DNA from: Deltaproteobacteria bacterium
GTDB lineage: Bacteria; Desulfobacterota; Binatia; UBA12015
Length of the DNA: 47,652 nt
Direction of reading: 5' to 3'
Assembly: GCA_016874795.1 (NCBI GenBank)
Contig: VGTG01000027.1
Coordinates: forward strand, 1-47,652
Shown here in pieces: positions 2,820 through 47,652 of this stretch. The notes beneath the pieces are model-generated. The model was not told the DNA's origin. It searched no databases and saw only the letters and a program-made list of their open reading frames with translations. The position numbers were made by a program, and so were the translations under genes. How positions within the stretch are numbered: the stretch's first letter is position 1; every line of letters starts with the position of its first letter.

Positions 2820-2835
2820 TGGCACCGGCATTGCT
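2820..2835 (+). promoter_or_regulatory. sigma-54 (-24/-12) promoter
   Basis: TGGCAC at 2820-2825, five bases, then TTGCT at 2831-2835. This is an exact match to the TGGCAC-N5-TTGCW consensus with correct spacing. It would start transcription near 2846, about 40 bases before the small membrane protein gene. A 12-base palindrome GGACGATCGTCC (2805-2816) lies immediately upstream. GTCGAACGG occurs twice (2730-2738, 2759-2767) and could be activator sites. The promoter is nearly identical to the one at 47029-47044. Confidence 0.7.
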
Positions 2836-2885: not shown

Positions 2886-3095
2886 ATGGCTGCTCTATTT
2901 GCATTGAACGCTCCCCTGATCGACCTGGCGGGCGGAATTCCGACGGCTGCTCTGACGTTGCCGTTCGAGGGCTTCGCCGCGATCGGCTTGCCGATCGTGA
3001 TCGCTCTCGGGCTCGCATTCGGTCTCGTCGCGGGTCGGCGCTACCGGCGCTCTCCGCGACCGGCAACCGCGACGCCTTCGCCGGCTGCAGCCTGA
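2886..3095 (+). CDS. small membrane protein of unknown function
   Basis: 69 residues. The start is well supported: GGAAGGA lies seven bases upstream of ATG. The N-terminal half is mildly hydrophobic (ALFALNAPLIDLAGG). A clear membrane segment follows at about residues 31-50 (AAIGLPIVIALGLAFGLVAG), then a basic RRYRR stop-transfer and a short A/P/T-rich tail, so it probably has one or two membrane passes with the tail in the cytoplasm. No family was recognised. Its position directly behind the sigma-54 promoter at 2820-2835 suggests an inducible envelope function. Confidence 0.6.
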   Translation: MAALFALNAPLIDLAGGIPTAALTLPFEGFAAIGLPIVIALGLAFGLVAGRRYRRSPRPATATPSPAAA

Positions 3096-37288: not shown

Positions 37289-38674
<1,386 letters not shown>

Positions 38675-38809
38675 CGAAGGTCTTCTCGCCGCGGCACTCT
38701 ACTCGATTTGCCGACGCCGGGCGATTCCAAACGAGGCGGAGGGTGGGCACCCTCCCGGTCGTCGTTCATTTGCGTCCTTCGTCGGCCCCACGTTACGTCT
38801 CGACGGTCC

Positions 38810-39979
38810 GTGGACGCCTTTCTCGCACCATTTGCAGAGGTCCGCCCGACCGACGTCGTCGACATCCTGCTCGTCACCGCGCTCGTGTACGCGGTGGTCC
38901 TCTGGCTGCGCGGCAGCCGCGCCTCGCTCGTCGCCTTCGGGGTGCTGCTCCTGGCCCTCGTCTTCAGCGCCGCCCGCGCCCTCGGCCTGCAGCTGACGAC
39001 CTGGCTCTTCCAGGGCTTCTTCGCGGTCTTCCTGATCATCGTCGTCGTCATCTTCCAGGAGGAGCTGCGGCAGGTGTTCGAGCGGGTGGCGCTGCTCGGC
39101 CTGCGGCGGAGCGTCCGCGCCGAAGCGCCGCGGGAGGTGACGGATCTTCTCGTCGAATGCCTCGGCAACCTCGCTCGTCAACGCGTCGGTGCGATCCTCG
39201 TGCTCCCCGGCGAGCAGCCGCTCAGCCGCCACGTCCGCGGCGGCATCGAGCTCGATGCGAAGGTGAGCATCCCGCTGCTCGAGAGCTTGACGGATCCCCA
39301 CTCGCCCGGCCACGACGGTGCGATTCTCCTCTCGGGCGAACGCGTCAGCCGCTTCGGCGTGCACCTGCCGCTCTCGACCAACTTCGCTCGTCTGTCCGGC
39401 TTCGGAACGCGGCACGCCGCGGCGCTCGGCCTCGCGGAGAGGACGGACGCGATCTGCTTCGTCGTGTCCGAGGAGCGCGGCTCGATCTCGGTCGCGAGCA
39501 AGGGCGAGATCCGGCGGCTGCGCGACGCGAGCGAGGTCGCGCACCTCCTGCGGGAGCTCGGCGAGCTGCGCGCGGCGGCGACGCCGTCGCTCTGGCGTCG
39601 CGTGCGCTGGCTCGACCTCGTCGGGGCGTTCGCCGCGGTCTTGATCCTCTGGTTCGTGCTCGTCCCCGGCGCGCGTCCCTCGATCCTTCGGGTCGAGGCG
39701 CCCGTCGTCGTGACCAACGTCCCGGTCGGATACGAGCTCGAGAAGATCGACCCGCCCGAGGTGGAGATCGCGCTCAGCGGTCCGTCGCGCGCGTTCTATC
39801 TCCTCGACAAGGACGCGATCGACGTCACCGTCGACGCGACTCTCGCGAACCTCGGGCGCCGCACGTTCGCGATCACGAGCGAGCAGGTACGCAAGCCCGC
39901 CGCGATGACGGTCGAGGACATCGCGCCGGCGCAGGTGCGGATCTCGCTCGCCTCGAAGCAGAACAGGCCCGGAGCATGA
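38810..39979 (+). CDS. cdaA: membrane diadenylate cyclase (CdaA-type DisA_N) fused to YbbR-like domain
   Basis: 389 residues from GTG 38810, chosen because it places the first helix where CdaA proteins start; no good ribosome site is visible. Three helices (about 17-33, 37-55, 66-84) lead into a DisA_N domain. It shows HDGA (D169-G170-A171) and GTRHAAALGLAE at 199-210. CdaA and DisA proteins normally have RHR where this has R201-H202-A203. A fourth helix (268-285) precedes a YbbR-like domain (about 295-380: VVVTNVPVGYELEKIDPPEVEI). It would make c-di-AMP if active. It overlaps the next gene by ATGA. Confidence 0.85.
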   Translation: MDAFLAPFAEVRPTDVVDILLVTALVYAVVLWLRGSRASLVAFGVLLLALVFSAARALGLQLTTWLFQGFFAVFLIIVVVIFQEELRQVFERVALLGLRRSVRAEAPREVTDLLVECLGNLARQRVGAILVLPGEQPLSRHVRGGIELDAKVSIPLLESLTDPHSPGHDGAILLSGERVSRFGVHLPLSTNFARLSGFGTRHAAALGLAERTDAICFVVSEERGSISVASKGEIRRLRDASEVAHLLRELGELRAAATPSLWRRVRWLDLVGAFAAVLILWFVLVPGARPSILRVEAPVVVTNVPVGYELEKIDPPEVEIALSGPSRAFYLLDKDAIDVTVDATLANLGRRTFAITSEQVRKPAAMTVEDIAPAQVRISLASKQNRPGA

Positions 39980-41556
39980 ACCGCCCGGCGCAGATCGTCG
40001 GCGCGATCCTGATCGCGTTCGGGCTCACGGTGTTCGTGTGGAAGTCGTTCATGCTCGACCTTCCGCTGCAGCCGTCGGACCCCGAAGGGCTGTGGGGCGT
40101 CGAGTTCCTCGTCAAGGTCCGCGGCGGAACGGGACAGGGCAGCATCCGCGTCCCGCTCCCCTCGACCGAGCCGGGCCAGGTCGTGTTCGACGAGAGGTCG
40201 ATCTCCGATCGGCTGCGCTTCACGATCCGCTCGGAGCACGGGCAGCGCATCGGCGTCTGGTCCGGGACACTGCGCGGCTCACACGAGATCGCACACGGAT
40301 TCCGTGTCCAGCTCGCGCCCGAGCACACGCGCCTCTCCGCCGGGGAGGAAGAAGAGGAGGAGCCGGCGCGCGGCGGCGACGATCCTCTCAAGGCCTCGAC
40401 CGTCGAGCTGCCCTCGGAGGCTCCCGAGATCGCCGAGCTGCTCTCCCGCGTCTCGCTTCCGAGCGAGCGTGAGCCGGCGGACCGCGCTCGCATCCTCTTC
40501 GCCTACGTGAACGACGAGATCGCGACCATCGAAACAGGAAGCGAAGACGCGCTCCTGACGCTCGCGTCGCGCGAAGGCAGCCCCGACGGCAAGGTGCGCC
40601 TCCTTGCGACGCTGCTCCGCGCCGCCGGCATTCCGGCGCGGCCCGTCCTCGGGATCCGTCTCACTCCGGGCGCCTTGCCGCAGATCCTGCCGTGGGTCGA
40701 GGCGCGCGTCGACGGCGAGTGGGTCTCGATGTCGCCGACCGACGGATTCTTCGGCGCGCGTCCGAAGGACCTCCTCGTGCTGCGTCGTGGGTCGCTCGAG
40801 ATGGTCGAGGCGACCGGCGCGAGCGCGGTCGCGCACCGGGTGAACGCGCTGCGCGAGCGGCTCCGTCCCGAGGAGCTCGCTGCGATGATGGTGCCGCCGA
40901 ACCGCACGCTCGCGGAGATCTCGCTCTACCGTCTTCCCGTCGGGACGCAGGCCGCGTTGCGCGCGCTGCTCCTGCTGCCGCTCGGCGCGCTCGTCGTCGC
41001 GTTCGCGCGGAACGTGCTCGGCATCCCGACGTTCGGCACGTTCATGCCGATCCTGATCGCGTTCACGTTGAGGGAGACGTCGCTCACGATCGGCCTCGCG
41101 ATGGTCGTCGGCGTCCTCGCGCTCGGCGTTGCGGGCCGCGTCCTCCTCGACCGGCTGCATCTCCTTCTCGTGCCGCGGCTCTCGATCCTGCTCTGCATCG
41201 TCGTCCTCGCGGTGACGACGCTCGCCCTTTTCGGACGCGAGGTCGACAGCACCGACCTCTTCGCGGGCGTGCTCTTCCCGATCGTTATCTTGACGATGCT
41301 CGTCGAGCGGTTCTCGATCACCCTCGCGGAGGAAGGACTCCGGGAAGCGCTGATCCGCGCCGGGTGGTCGGTCCTCGTCGCGGTCGGCGTCTACCCGATC
41401 TTCCGGAGCCCGCTCGCGGAGCATCTGATGTTCGGATACCCGGAGCTCCTCTTCGTCATCATGGGGCTGCTCGTGCTGATCGGCGCGTACACCGGCTATC
41501 GCCTCGCCGACCTCCTCCGCTTCCGCTCCTTCGCGCAGGAGAACGAGGACGCATGA
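39976..41556 (+). CDS. inactive-transglutaminase domain fused to 7 transmembrane helices
   Basis: 526 residues. One N-terminal helix (about 7-27) is followed by an extracytoplasmic UUP1-type region. A transglutaminase-like segment comes next (SPDGKVRLLATLLRAAGIPA, then LPWVEARVDGEWVSMSPTDG) in which the usual Cys and His of the triad are missing. From about residue 315 come seven membrane helices (ALRALLLLPLGALVVAFARN, TFGTFMPILIAFTLRETSL and so on), the 7TM_transglut domain. Such proteins recur next to alpha-L-glutamate-ligase-like genes, as here. Function unknown; probably an envelope partner of the ATP-grasp enzyme. Confidence 0.88.
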   Translation: MNRPAQIVGAILIAFGLTVFVWKSFMLDLPLQPSDPEGLWGVEFLVKVRGGTGQGSIRVPLPSTEPGQVVFDERSISDRLRFTIRSEHGQRIGVWSGTLRGSHEIAHGFRVQLAPEHTRLSAGEEEEEEPARGGDDPLKASTVELPSEAPEIAELLSRVSLPSEREPADRARILFAYVNDEIATIETGSEDALLTLASREGSPDGKVRLLATLLRAAGIPARPVLGIRLTPGALPQILPWVEARVDGEWVSMSPTDGFFGARPKDLLVLRRGSLEMVEATGASAVAHRVNALRERLRPEELAAMMVPPNRTLAEISLYRLPVGTQAALRALLLLPLGALVVAFARNVLGIPTFGTFMPILIAFTLRETSLTIGLAMVVGVLALGVAGRVLLDRLHLLLVPRLSILLCIVVLAVTTLALFGREVDSTDLFAGVLFPIVILTMLVERFSITLAEEGLREALIRAGWSVLVAVGVYPIFRSPLAEHLMFGYPELLFVIMGLLVLIGAYTGYRLADLLRFRSFAQENEDA

Positions 41557-43957: not shown

Positions 43958-44971
43958 ATGTCCCGGACGCTTCGAGCCGAGATCCTCGTGATCGTCGTCG
44001 CGGCGGTCGTCGTCGCGATCGGCTCGTGGCAGTGGCTCGGCGGGCCGCACGCACTGCGAACGCCCGGCGAGGCCGCCCGTGCCGCGCTCGTCTGCGGCGG
44101 CGCCCTCCTCCTGCTCTGGCTCCTCGTCGACCGCTTCGTTCGTGCGCGCGTCGAAGGTCCGGTCCACACGCTCACGCACGGTCTCGAGGAGCGGGTCGGG
44201 CGAACGGCGGACGAGCTCGCGACGCGCGCGCGCGAGCTCGATGCCCTGACGGAGCGGCTCCACGCGATGCAGCTCGAAGCGGTGCGCAGCGAGCGCTTTG
44301 CGGCGCTCGGCCAGACGATGGGCACGCTCGCGCACGAGCTCGGCACGCCGCTCAACTCGGTCCTCGGCTACACACAGCTCCTTCGCCAGCAGGAGATGGA
44401 TCCCGAGCGCTCCGCGAAGCTCGACGTGATCGAGTCGCAGGTGCGCCGCATGATCGAGACCATCGATCGCACGCTCTCGCGCACGCGCGAGGGCGTCCTC
44501 GAGGTCGAGGACGTCGACGTGCGACGCATCGTCGACGAGGTGCTGACGCTCGTGAGCGCTCGGGCCGCGAAGCAGCACATCGACATCGCGCCGGAGATCG
44601 CGAAGGAGCTGAACGACGTCCGCGCCGATCCGGTGGCCCTGCGCCAGGTCCTCGTGAACCTGGTCAACAACGCGCTCGACGCGGAGGAAACCCGCCGCAT
44701 CGTCATCCGGATCGCGACGCCGCCGAGCCCGGTCCCGACGGGCAACCTCGAGATCGAGGTGAGCGACGACGGCGCCGGCATCCCGCGCGACGAGCAGCCG
44801 CGGATCTTCGAAGCGTTCTACACGACGAAGGAGCCCGGCCGCGGGACCGGACTCGGGCTCGCGATCGTCGACCACCTCGTCCGGGCGCACGGCGGCGACA
44901 TCTCGGTCGAGAGCATCCCGAGCCGCGGCACGACGTTCCGCGTGCGGCTCCCCTGCGGGTTCGCGTCGTGA
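43958..44971 (+). CDS. two-TM sensor histidine kinase
   Basis: 337 residues. Membrane helices at about 8-25 and 42-58 are separated by only about 16 residues, so there is no folded periplasmic sensor; signal detection probably lies in the membrane or through a partner. A coiled segment (70-110) leads to the phosphoacceptor H126 in GTLAHELGTPLNSVLGYTQ. The ATPase domain has LVNLVNNALDAEE, DDGAGIPRDEQPRIFEAFYT and GTGLGLAIVDHLVRAHGG (N, G1 and G2 boxes). It is translationally coupled (GTGA) to the NtrC-type regulator, its probable target. NtrB/ZraS-like by organisation. Confidence 0.92.
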   Translation: MSRTLRAEILVIVVAAVVVAIGSWQWLGGPHALRTPGEAARAALVCGGALLLLWLLVDRFVRARVEGPVHTLTHGLEERVGRTADELATRARELDALTERLHAMQLEAVRSERFAALGQTMGTLAHELGTPLNSVLGYTQLLRQQEMDPERSAKLDVIESQVRRMIETIDRTLSRTREGVLEVEDVDVRRIVDEVLTLVSARAAKQHIDIAPEIAKELNDVRADPVALRQVLVNLVNNALDAEETRRIVIRIATPPSPVPTGNLEIEVSDDGAGIPRDEQPRIFEAFYTTKEPGRGTGLGLAIVDHLVRAHGGDISVESIPSRGTTFRVRLPCGFAS

Positions 44972-46326
44972 AGCGGATCCTCGTCGTCGACGACGACGCA
45001 GTGAGCTGCCAGCTCCTCGCCGACGTGCTCCGCAGCGACGGTGCGGAGGTCGTCACCGAGACGGACGGGGGCTCCGCGCTCGAGCTCGCGGAGCGGTTGC
45101 ACGTCGACCTCGCGCTCGTCGACGTCCGCATGCCGGGAATGACCGGCATTTCACTCTTGACCGAGCTGCGCCGCCGCTTCCCGAGCCTGCCGGTGATCCT
45201 GATGACCGCGTTCGGATCGGTCGAGACCGCGGTCGAGGCGGTCGGCGCGGGTGCGGCCGACTATCTGAGCAAGCCCGCCGACGTGCACGAGATCCGCGCC
45301 GCGGTCGCGCGCGCCCTCGGCCATCCGAGCGACGCGCGCGCGGAGCTGCCGAGCTCCGAGGCCGACGTCGGCGGGCTCGTCGGACGCTCCGCCGCAATGG
45401 TGCGCATCTACAACACGATCGCACGCGTCGCGTCCGGACGATCGACCGTGCTCGTCCTCGGCGAGAGCGGCACCGGGAAGGAGCTGATCGCCCGCGCGAT
45501 CCATCGGCACGGCCCGCGAAGCCGCGGACCGTACGTCGCCGTCGATTGCGGCGCGCTTCCCGAGACGCTCCTCGAGAGCGAGCTCTTCGGCCACGTGCGC
45601 GGCGCCTTCACCGGAGCGATCGCCGATTCTCCCGGCCTCTTCGCGGAGGCGGACGGGGGGACGCTCTTCCTCGACGAGATCGGTCACGTGAGCCCCGAAC
45701 TCCAGTCGCGGCTCCTCCGCGCCCTGCAGGAGCACGAGATCCGTCCCGTCGGCGGACAGAAGTGGCGTACCGTCGACGCGCGCGTGATCGCGGCGACGAA
45801 CCGGAACCTCGCCGCGGAGGTCGCCGCGGGACGCTTTCGAGAGGACCTCTTCTACCGCCTCAAGGTGGTGACGATCGAGGTTCCGCCGCTGCGCGAGCGG
45901 CCGGAGGACCTGCCGCTCCTCGTCGATCACCTGATCCGCCGTGCGGCGCGCGACGGCGGCCGTCCCGCGCCCGGGATCTCACGGAGCGCGCTCCGCGCGA
46001 TCGAGGCCTATCCGTGGCCGGGGAACGTCCGCGAGCTCGCGCACGCGCTCGAGCGTGCGGTCGTCCTCGCGCGAGACGAGATGATCAGCGAGCACGACCT
46101 GCCCGAGCCGCTCTCCTCGATGCGCTCGGGGCCTCCGCCCGCGATCCCACGCGACCGGCCGACGCTCGGCGAGCTGAAGCGACGCTACGTGCAGATGGTC
46201 GTCGCCGAGCAGGGCGGCAACATCACGCGCGCGGCGGGCGTCCTCGGCGTCGACCGGCGCTCGCTCTACCGCATCCTCGAGCGCTACGCGCAGGGCGCGC
46301 GCGACGTCGAGGACGAAGACGACTGA
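44968..46326 (+). CDS. NtrC-family sigma-54 response regulator
   Basis: 452 residues, GTG start overlapping the kinase stop. The receiver domain (1-120) has D52 in ALVDVRMPGM and LMTAFGSVETAVEA. The AAA+ domain has GESGTGKE, an intact GAFTGA, and DEIGH. A Fis-type helix-turn-helix, GNITRAAGVLGVDRRSLYRI, closes the protein. It should activate sigma-54 promoters on phosphorylation by the coupled kinase; the promoters at 2820-2835 and 47029-47044 are candidate targets. Its last 43 bases overlap a convergent receiver gene. Confidence 0.95.
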   Translation: MKRILVVDDDAVSCQLLADVLRSDGAEVVTETDGGSALELAERLHVDLALVDVRMPGMTGISLLTELRRRFPSLPVILMTAFGSVETAVEAVGAGAADYLSKPADVHEIRAAVARALGHPSDARAELPSSEADVGGLVGRSAAMVRIYNTIARVASGRSTVLVLGESGTGKELIARAIHRHGPRSRGPYVAVDCGALPETLLESELFGHVRGAFTGAIADSPGLFAEADGGTLFLDEIGHVSPELQSRLLRALQEHEIRPVGGQKWRTVDARVIAATNRNLAAEVAAGRFREDLFYRLKVVTIEVPPLRERPEDLPLLVDHLIRRAARDGGRPAPGISRSALRAIEAYPWPGNVRELAHALERAVVLARDEMISEHDLPEPLSSMRSGPPPAIPRDRPTLGELKRRYVQMVVAEQGGNITRAAGVLGVDRRSLYRILERYAQGARDVEDEDD

Positions 46327-46796
46327 AGCGCGCGCGGCTTCGCCGGCACGAGGGAAGCGACCCTCGCGGCAAGCGCCGCCAGATCGAAGGGCTTGTCGAA
46401 GACGTCCGCGACGCCGAGCGCGCGGGCCTGCGCATGCGTCTGCACGTCACCGAAGGCGGTGATCAGGATGACCGGCACGTGGCGCCACGGTCCGGCGCGC
46501 ACGACGCGGAGCGCGTCGACGCCGGACAGTCCCGGCATGCGGAGGTCCGTGATCACGAGCCCGAGGCTCCCCTCGTCCGCGGGAGCGAGGGCGAGATCGG
46601 CGAGCCGGTCGAGCAGGTCGGCGCCCGAGCACGCCTCGACCACCCGGTAGCCCGCCTGCTCGAGCGTCGCGCGAAGGAGCGTGCGGAAGGTCGCGTCGTC
46701 CTCGGCGATCAGGATCGCCCGGGGAGGTGTCGCCCTCCCGACGCCTGCGTCGGCCGGCAGGCCCGGCCGCCTCGACTCCATCCCGCGCTCGTTCAT
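46284..46796 (-). CDS. stand-alone receiver-domain protein
   Basis: 170 residues from ATG 46796 (ATG 46781 possible). A CheY-like receiver fills residues about 28-145: ILIAEDDATFRTLLRATLEQ with the acidic pair, LGLVITDLRMPGLSGVDALR with the phosphoacceptor Asp, ILITAFGDVQTHAQARALG, and FDKPFDLAAL with the conserved Lys. The tail is serine-rich and short, with no output domain. It probably works as a phosphate sink or a protein-binding switch for the neighbouring two-component pair. It is convergent with, and overlaps, the NtrC-type gene. Confidence 0.88.
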   Translation of the reverse strand: MNERGMESRRPGLPADAGVGRATPPRAILIAEDDATFRTLLRATLEQAGYRVVEACSGADLLDRLADLALAPADEGSLGLVITDLRMPGLSGVDALRVVRAGPWRHVPVILITAFGDVQTHAQARALGVADVFDKPFDLAALAARVASLVPAKPRALQSSSSSTSRAPCA

Positions 46797-47027
46797 GCGT
46801 CGGTCCGCCAAGCCGCTACGCAAGAGGCATTCCCTCGGAAGGGGTGCCGCCGGCGGTGACGAATCTCGTCTCCTCGAAGGTTCGCGGGAGGGGCGTCGAG
46901 ACAAAAGGTCACCTCGGGCGTGGCGTTCGGTCTCGGAAACCTCTGCGACCGTCGCACGAAGCGGAAGGCCGTCTCGGCGTCGTGCGCTTCTGGGGCCGAG
47001 GAGCGAGGGATCGCGGCAATCTCGTTC
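46797..47027. other. upstream region of the second sigma-54 promoter
   Basis: This leads into the gap before the last gene. No gene is supported. An imperfect inverted repeat TCGCACGA / TCGTGCGC (near 46952 and 46979) might be an activator-binding site for the promoter at 47029-47044; this is inference. Confidence 0.35.
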
Positions 47028-47028
47028 T

Positions 47029-47044
47029 TGGCACCGGCCTTGCT
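47029..47044 (+). promoter_or_regulatory. sigma-54 (-24/-12) promoter
   Basis: TGGCAC at 47029-47034, five bases, then TTGCT at 47040-47044, preceded by T. This is an exact consensus match with correct spacing. It shares 15 of 16 bases with the promoter at 2820-2835, differing only at one spacer base. Transcription would start near 47055, about 75 bases before the secreted acidic protein gene. Confidence 0.7.
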
Positions 47045-47130
47045 GTTGCATTTCCACCGACATGCAGGAACAGTGCGACACGTTCGCCGAAGGGTCGGCG
47101 AGAGCGGGGCTCACCGCGTGGAGGTCTGGG

Positions 47131-47538
47131 GTGCCGGCGCTGATTCGGAGGGGTGGGGGGAGCGGTTCGGACGGCCAGGCATCGCCCTCGGAGACGGCTC
47201 CCGGCCGCTCCGCACGACGGCGACTCCGGACGGGGATCGGGCGAGCGGTTCCGGCTTTGGCCCTGTCGTTCGCATTCTTCGCGGCGAGCACGCCGAGCGC
47301 CGTCGCGGGAGAGCTCGAAGCCGTCGACCCGCCGTTCGAGAGCTGGGAAGACGACCTCTTCGGCGACGAGGAGCCGCTCTACCACGACTCCGATCCCTCC
47401 TGGGCCGAAGAGGATCCGGGCCTCGACGAGGGCGAAGGTTACGCACCGTTGTTCCCACCACTGGCGCCGTGGGATCTCGACGAGCCGAGCCTGGAAGAAC
47501 CGGTTTTCGCCGAGCCGGACGTTCTCGAAGAGACCTAG
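47131..47538 (+). CDS. exported acidic protein of unknown function
   Basis: 135 residues from GTG 47131, which has GGAGG six bases upstream; an ATG at 47062 is the alternative but lacks such a site. A long basic N-region (ARRRLRTGIGR) leads into a signal segment (AVPALALSFAFFAAST) with likely cleavage after SAVA. The mature part, about 75 residues, is very acidic and rich in D, E, P and W (SWEDDLFGDEEPLYHDSDPS). No cysteine or family motif is seen. Low complexity and charge suggest metal binding or disorder. It lies directly behind the sigma-54 promoter at 47029-47044. Confidence 0.6.
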   Translation: MPALIRRGGGSGSDGQASPSETAPGRSARRRLRTGIGRAVPALALSFAFFAASTPSAVAGELEAVDPPFESWEDDLFGDEEPLYHDSDPSWAEEDPGLDEGEGYAPLFPPLAPWDLDEPSLEEPVFAEPDVLEET

Positions 47539-47652
47539 CCTGCATTTCTCACCAGATCACGTCGCGAGGCGGTCGAGAGTGCCGAAGATTCGCGAGCCTC
47601 GGACCGGAGGGCGACGCAGGCGTACTTGAACAGTACGTCGAGGAGCCCGGAG
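47539..47652. other. window end without recognised gene
   Basis: 114 bases after the acidic protein gene. They contain a small hairpin, CGTACT-TGAAC-AGTACG (47621-47637), of unknown role. No coding sequence was supported before the window ends. Confidence 0.4.

Follow-up and report, generated by a model that had tools for sequence, protein, structure and literature searches.

The window, meaning the whole stretch of DNA that was analysed (47,652 nucleotides), contains two sigma-54-type promoter cores, each followed by a gene for a short protein without detected relatives. A histidine kinase, a response regulator of the NtrC type and a receiver-domain protein are encoded beside the second core, and the contig ends shortly after it inside a repeated element. 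The features discussed below are the following.

2820..2835, + strand: sigma-54 promoter core TGGCACCGGCATTGCT; sharing of an activator with the 47029 promoter is only a candidate idea
2886..3095, + strand: 69-residue orphan protein encoded downstream of the 2820 core; it has a single hydrophobic segment
37289..38674, - strand: second activator, with FHA-AAA+-HTH_8 domains and a GSFTGA loop
43958..44971, + strand: histidine kinase gene (the enclosing frame matches HisKA and HATPase_c; the kinases of 15 orthologous loci were aligned with it)
44968..46326, + strand: NtrC-type response regulator, the proposed activator (Pfam REC-AAA+-HTH_8, GAFTGA loop, orthologues)
46284..46796, - strand: single receiver-domain protein (Response_reg, E 1e-21; start ATG 46796)
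46898..46912, no strand assigned: predicted operator 1, GAGACAAAAGGTCAC, centred at about -150 from the predicted start (best site for the position weight matrix, window held out)
46920..46934, no strand assigned: predicted operator 2, GTGGCGTTCGGTCTC, centred at about -128 (second-best matrix site in the window)
47029..47044, + strand: sigma-54 promoter core TGGCACCGGCCTTGCT (motif, and corresponding position in orthologues)
47131..47538, + strand: exported acidic protein, 135 residues from GTG (signal peptide predicted by eye)
47535..47652, + strand: left part of a 186-bp repeat (CTAG...CTAG), inside which the contig of the window ends

The core at 47029-47044 has the GG at -24 and the GC at -12 by which sigma-54 promoters are recognized, within TGGCAC-N5-TTGCW, and the predicted transcription start is near 47055. 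As the original prediction stated, it differs from the core at 2820-2835 in a single spacer base (A/C). These two are the sole matches to TGGCACN5TTGCW in the window with one mismatch allowed; the shuffle mean was 0.36 matches, and 5 of 100 shuffles reached two.

The kinase and regulator genes both read towards the 47029 promoter, which is about 0.7 kb from the regulator gene. The receiver gene sits between regulator and promoter and is convergent with the regulator. The regulator fits the NtrC family in having a receiver domain, a sigma-54 AAA+ domain with GAFTGA and a Fis-type helix-turn-helix. Its best NCBIfam match was ZraR, at 436.3 bits, below the NF007689 cut-off of 760 bits. Identity as a PEP-CTERM response regulator was considered and rejected, the TIGR02915 score of 363.7 bits lying below the cut-off of 502.6. 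For the kinase we chose the ATG at 43958 inside a longer frame. A protein starting there has two membrane segments separated by only a very short loop, and apparently lacks the periplasmic domain (about 130-150 residues, judged by eye) that is found in the closer orthologues, so that a sensor domain has seemingly been lost from the kinase in this lineage. Between the two activator genes, frames on the + strand at 38048-41556 match DisA nucleotide-binding (c-di-AMP synthase type) and 7TM-transglutaminase domains.

Sigma-54 machinery and promoter sites in the genome

RpoN is encoded in the genome (one match, E 1.8e-63), and the sigma-54 activator domain has 33 matches, 27 of them strong. It is true, as had been noted, that two activators are encoded between the two cores (44968-46326 and 37289-38674), and this carries little weight because so many strong activators are present. 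The pattern proposed in the original prediction, TGGCACCGGCMTTGCTG, has exactly three matches in the 6.27-Mb genome, the two window sites (both on the + strand) and one further match at C67:4303, which precedes a gene for a 51-residue DUF3309 protein. Looser searches gave 16 matches genome-wide for TGGCACN5TTGCW (reversed control: 4) and 5 for TGGCATN5TTGCW (control: none), which argues that core sites occur beyond chance. Both window motifs are supported by the sequence as real sigma-54 promoters.

By eye, a plausible gene begins shortly after 18 of the 21 exact-core sites, none being seen after the core at L005, L007 and L015. Some cores may also sit inside the end of a preceding gene, overlapping frames being everywhere in this DNA of 70% GC. 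Thirteen of the 21 products look, by eye, like exported or membrane proteins. Family matches behind the cores include a pilin-type N-terminus, an ammonium transporter, two Big_2 proteins and two TSP_3 proteins, as well as glycosyltransferase, radical-SAM, histidine kinase, GAF-domain, HTH and DUF3309 proteins. Sigma-54 is presented as a controller of the bacterial exterior in passages of Francke et al. 2011 (PMC3162934), and many sites here likewise lead exported, pilus, glycosyltransferase or transport genes. In those passages the exterior theme is a general trend, which does not make the window promoters one regulon.

The two TSP_3-repeat proteins (L013 and L016) are paralogous and exported-looking and contain a matrixin-like HExxH stretch, HELGHAIGFAHSW, although the matrixin match of L016 falls below the cut-off. 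Inverted repeats of the form GCGTCA/TGACGC were seen by eye upstream of both.

Counts of TGGCACN5TTGCW against the control in three other members of the genus were 8 v 7, 5 v 10 and 11 v 7, which is no enrichment in two of them and a slight one in the third; enrichment is greater in three further genomes of the family (13 v 9, 10 v 4 and 11 v 2). Within the genome of the window, 22 of the 210 pairs that can be formed from the 21 exact-core sites agree in at least four of the five bases of the spacer, and in 5 of the 210 at least 16 of 17 positions are the same. Because the spacer is strongly biased across these sites and a sigma-54 promoter is selected by the activator bound upstream of it, the near-identity of two cores says little about co-regulation.

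Regulator orthologues and a predicted operator pair

A search with the regulator of 148 genomes of the class found 27 genomes (its own included) with matches at E 1e-118 or better. These gave 28 match rows, among them the window's own and 22 that were read as wide regions. In G081, G129, G130, G137 and G139 only short loci were scanned, at least one of them ended by a contig end, and nothing was found there. We took as the orthologue set the 17 fetched loci (L232 and L276-L291) in which the regulator is at least 50% identical. A -24/-12 site occurs downstream of the regulator gene in 15 of the 17, with TTGC at -12 in 14, and is spread over six families, the sixth being counted through the one weak site of L291 (CTGC at -12). 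In 13 loci the site lies at +88 to +176, and in the remaining two at +662 and +832; no such site follows the regulator gene in L282 or L290. None of the five fetched loci under 50% identity has a TTGC-type site downstream of the regulator. The loose promoter expression also gave scattered weaker matches elsewhere in the loci, as chance predicts, and a tblastx comparison of synteny was too noisy for use.

The closest orthologue in the family is that of G006, which belongs to another genus and has a regulator about 59-61% identical. Its layout is that of the window, with kinase, regulator, convergent receiver, -24/-12 site and a small exported-looking protein, the last having no visible likeness to the acidic protein of the window. 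No regulator orthologue was found in three other genomes of the same genus (best E about 1e-107), so the conservation spans families and not close relatives.

The gene behind the orthologue promoter is most often one for a same-strand receiver protein. In L277 the receiver gene is followed by genes for an outer-membrane efflux protein and a HlyD/CusB-type protein, and the next gene in L279 and L280 is visibly similar, by eye, to that of L277. Small Cys-containing exported-looking proteins with related sequences are encoded behind the promoter in L232 and L281, and a 421-residue exported-looking protein in L278. In L290, where no sigma-54 site was detected, the regulator match is followed at 124-502 and 935-1280 bases by genes for a pair of related proteins, both small and exported-looking, with many Tyr, His and Arg residues.

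A de novo search of the intergenic DNA of 15 orthologues identified the palindrome GRGRC-N5-GYCYC. The search took one site per sequence by construction and left the window out of training; it was confined to intergenic DNA after a first search had picked the coding sequence of the regulator itself, and the 5-5-5 palindromic model was chosen after a similar palindrome had been noticed by eye in the window and in L232. Site scores ranged from 10.1 to 18.8, with a total of 218 against 122-141 in eight shuffled sets, each of which was run with 300 seeds while the real set was run with all seeds.

With the matrix from which the window was held out, the sites at 46898 (15.9) and 46920 (13.0) rank first and second of 47,638 in the window. 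The best window score was reached by 0 of 300 shuffles in one run and 1 of 500 in another, and the pair by 0 of 500. The two sites are 22 bp apart, about two helical turns, and their positions at about -150 and -128 suit predicted upstream activator sites, which according to a passage of PMC4987338 usually lie 80-150 bp from a sigma-54 promoter. Spacing of this kind recurs among the orthologues, with the two best sites 19-23 bp apart in 13 of 15, the second site being weak in several (down to 1.0).

The ranking depends to some degree on which loci make up the matrix. The window operators still rank first and second when all f1 sequence is omitted, first and third with one locus per family, and first and fifth with f8 only. 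A matrix from f6 and f2 places them only 49th and 23rd; its pair score for 47029 (14.0) is second to that of 18498 (14.4) and little above that of 2756 (12.8). A 17-base model picks the same two places in the window, the best score being reached by 1 of 300 shuffles.

Scored as a tandem, the pair at 47029 reaches 29.0, and the runner-up in the window 11.4. Across about 369 kb of loci (overlaps counted; the set includes L068 and L069, from other genomes), a tandem score of 18 or more is found nowhere else. The best 80 regulator-homologue loci in the contig scan, none of them above 49% identity, include 17 in which a strict -24/-12 site lies no more than 1 kb from the regulator match, and all 17 have tandem scores below 18 (the highest is 17.4, at L107). 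Sigma-54 sites are therefore common beside such regulators, and the operator is the specific part. A homologue from the same family with less than 50% identity (G005, L204) has a strong operator-like pair of 20.3 and no strict promoter core.

The palindrome TGCGAC-C-GTCGCA at 46944-46956 was also considered as an operator and rejected, the motif derived from the orthologues lying elsewhere. Elsewhere in the genome it has a single exact copy, inside what by eye is a secretion-type gene.

A candidate circuit and its alternatives

We consider it likely that 47029-47044 is a sigma-54 promoter core that is driven by the adjacent two-component system and serves the exported acidic protein. Comparison of loci supplies the predicted promoter position, the operator and the tandem spacing; to these we add phosphorylation, binding, activation and export as inferred steps. 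The kinase (43958-44971) would phosphorylate the NtrC-type regulator (44968-46326), which would bind the two palindromes at 46898-46912 and 46920-46934 and loop to sigma-54 polymerase at 47029. Transcription would then start near 47055 and lead into the gene for the strongly acidic protein (47131-47538). The circuit is probably a local one with a single target.

The promoter could instead be real and the acidic frame no gene, with the transcript serving a gene beyond the contig end. The acidic protein is an orphan, having no Pfam match at E 0.001 and no match in 57 other genomes, and the case for a real gene is therefore made by its signal-peptide-like start, its codon composition and a Shine-Dalgarno sequence. 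Other genes stand behind the promoter in most orthologues, and the end of the acidic gene abuts the repeat at which the contig stops. We nevertheless think this explanation unlikely, as the likely start, GTG 47131, lies six bases after GGAGG, a signal-like segment ends by eye at AVA-G, and the base composition after that segment is coding-like (0.79/0.43/0.79). An alternative in-frame start, ATG 47062, lacks a good ribosome site. The mature part of 76 residues contains 27 D/E, no K/R and 12 P.

The TAG stop codon of the acidic gene lies in the CTAG edge of the repeat. At least 40 copies of the repeat, at 100% identity over about 118 bases, were present among 263 first-look candidates, and the 12 complete copies are 186 bp long, have inverted ends and are mutually identical. 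Flanking CTAG was found at 41 of 42 distinct ends and TTAG at one, which suggests that CTAG is a duplicated target; if so, the TAG stop was the acidic gene's own. Several copies sit at contig ends, and this MITE-like element has probably undergone a recent burst and contributed to the broken assembly. Copies also lie shortly upstream of two of the other sigma-54-like cores (L007 and L010).

Granting a gene for the acidic protein, we can only guess at its role. Most likely it would be a periplasmic or secreted polyanion for a response to envelope or cation stress, since orthologue promoters precede efflux-type genes in some loci and small exported proteins in others.

On the reading of the original prediction, the promoters at 2820 and 47029 would form a small envelope regulon governed by one and the same activator. 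We regard this as very improbable. The cores are nearly identical, and upstream of 2820 there is a tandem operator-like match at 2756 and 2775, so that a shared activator-binding site would have a strong match at 47029 (29.0, 0 of 500 shuffles) and a weak one at 2820 (8.4, p 0.018 uncorrected). However, activators are not selected by cores, and the activator-specific sites differ. A conserved C is missing from each half of the 2756/2775 match. Of the other 19 promoters tested outside the window, L023 alone outscores it (9.9), and it ranks fifth in the window, or third with two of four reduced matrices. Ungapped comparison of the regions upstream of 2820, 47029 and C67:4303 found likeness only at the level of shuffles (12 per pair), in a test that is weak because the paralogous L013 and L016 pair is also at shuffle level. 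The 69-residue protein behind the 2820 promoter has no match in 57 other genomes. A shared envelope regulon is thus unsupported by the upstream DNA, a weak second site at 2820 being possible and not established, and 2820 is best read as a separate sigma-54 promoter.

A role at 47029 for the FHA-type activator (37289-38674), or for another of the 27 strong activators in the genome, is scarcely credible, for although the FHA gene is only about 8 kb away, we found no evidence of its action at either window promoter, the regulator-linked operator pair at 47029 has no equal elsewhere in the scan, and the promoter accompanies the regulator across families.

Assignment to the adjacent two-component system turns a resemblance between motifs into a circuit with a regulator, a predicted operator and a target. 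The case also shows that look-alike sigma-54 cores are no ground for calling one regulon.

A possible exchange of payloads, and known systems

One tentative idea, which we think less likely than not, is that of a two-component system whose output slot is constant and whose payload can be swapped. On this reading the operators and promoter are kept beside the regulator in at least six families and the gene behind them changes, the payloads in the fetched loci being a receiver, a small Cys-containing exported protein (L232 and L281), a 421-residue exported-looking protein (L278) and, in the window, the unrelated acidic exported protein. With the sensor domain of the kinase seemingly lost, sensing or feedback could have passed to the payload. 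If it is true that the payload of the slot swaps between lineages, this would offer a route to small exported proteins without detectable relatives.

Among the publication titles listed for the operator or the approach, none concerned a GRGRC-N5-GYCYC operator. A motif reconstruction for Desulfovibrio vulgaris (PMC4641369) likewise predicts, in the passages compared, an activator from a palindromic site and from its location beside conserved sigma-54 promoters; it concerns another organism, and GRGRC-N5-GYCYC was not met in those passages.

The nearest parallel is with ZraSR and zraP of enteric bacteria, the role of which is treated in a part of PMC4987338. There, as in the window, a kinase and an NtrC-type regulator are encoded beside a sigma-54 promoter for a small exported protein. 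In contrast to that system, the exported protein of the window is acidic, an orphan that matches no Pfam family and so does not qualify as a ZraP, the kinase is apparently without a periplasmic domain, a convergent receiver gene lies in between, and the regulator scores under the ZraR cut-off and so does not qualify as a ZraR. By this analogy, the circuit in the window is best read as one that would work like ZraSR-zraP without being a member of that system.
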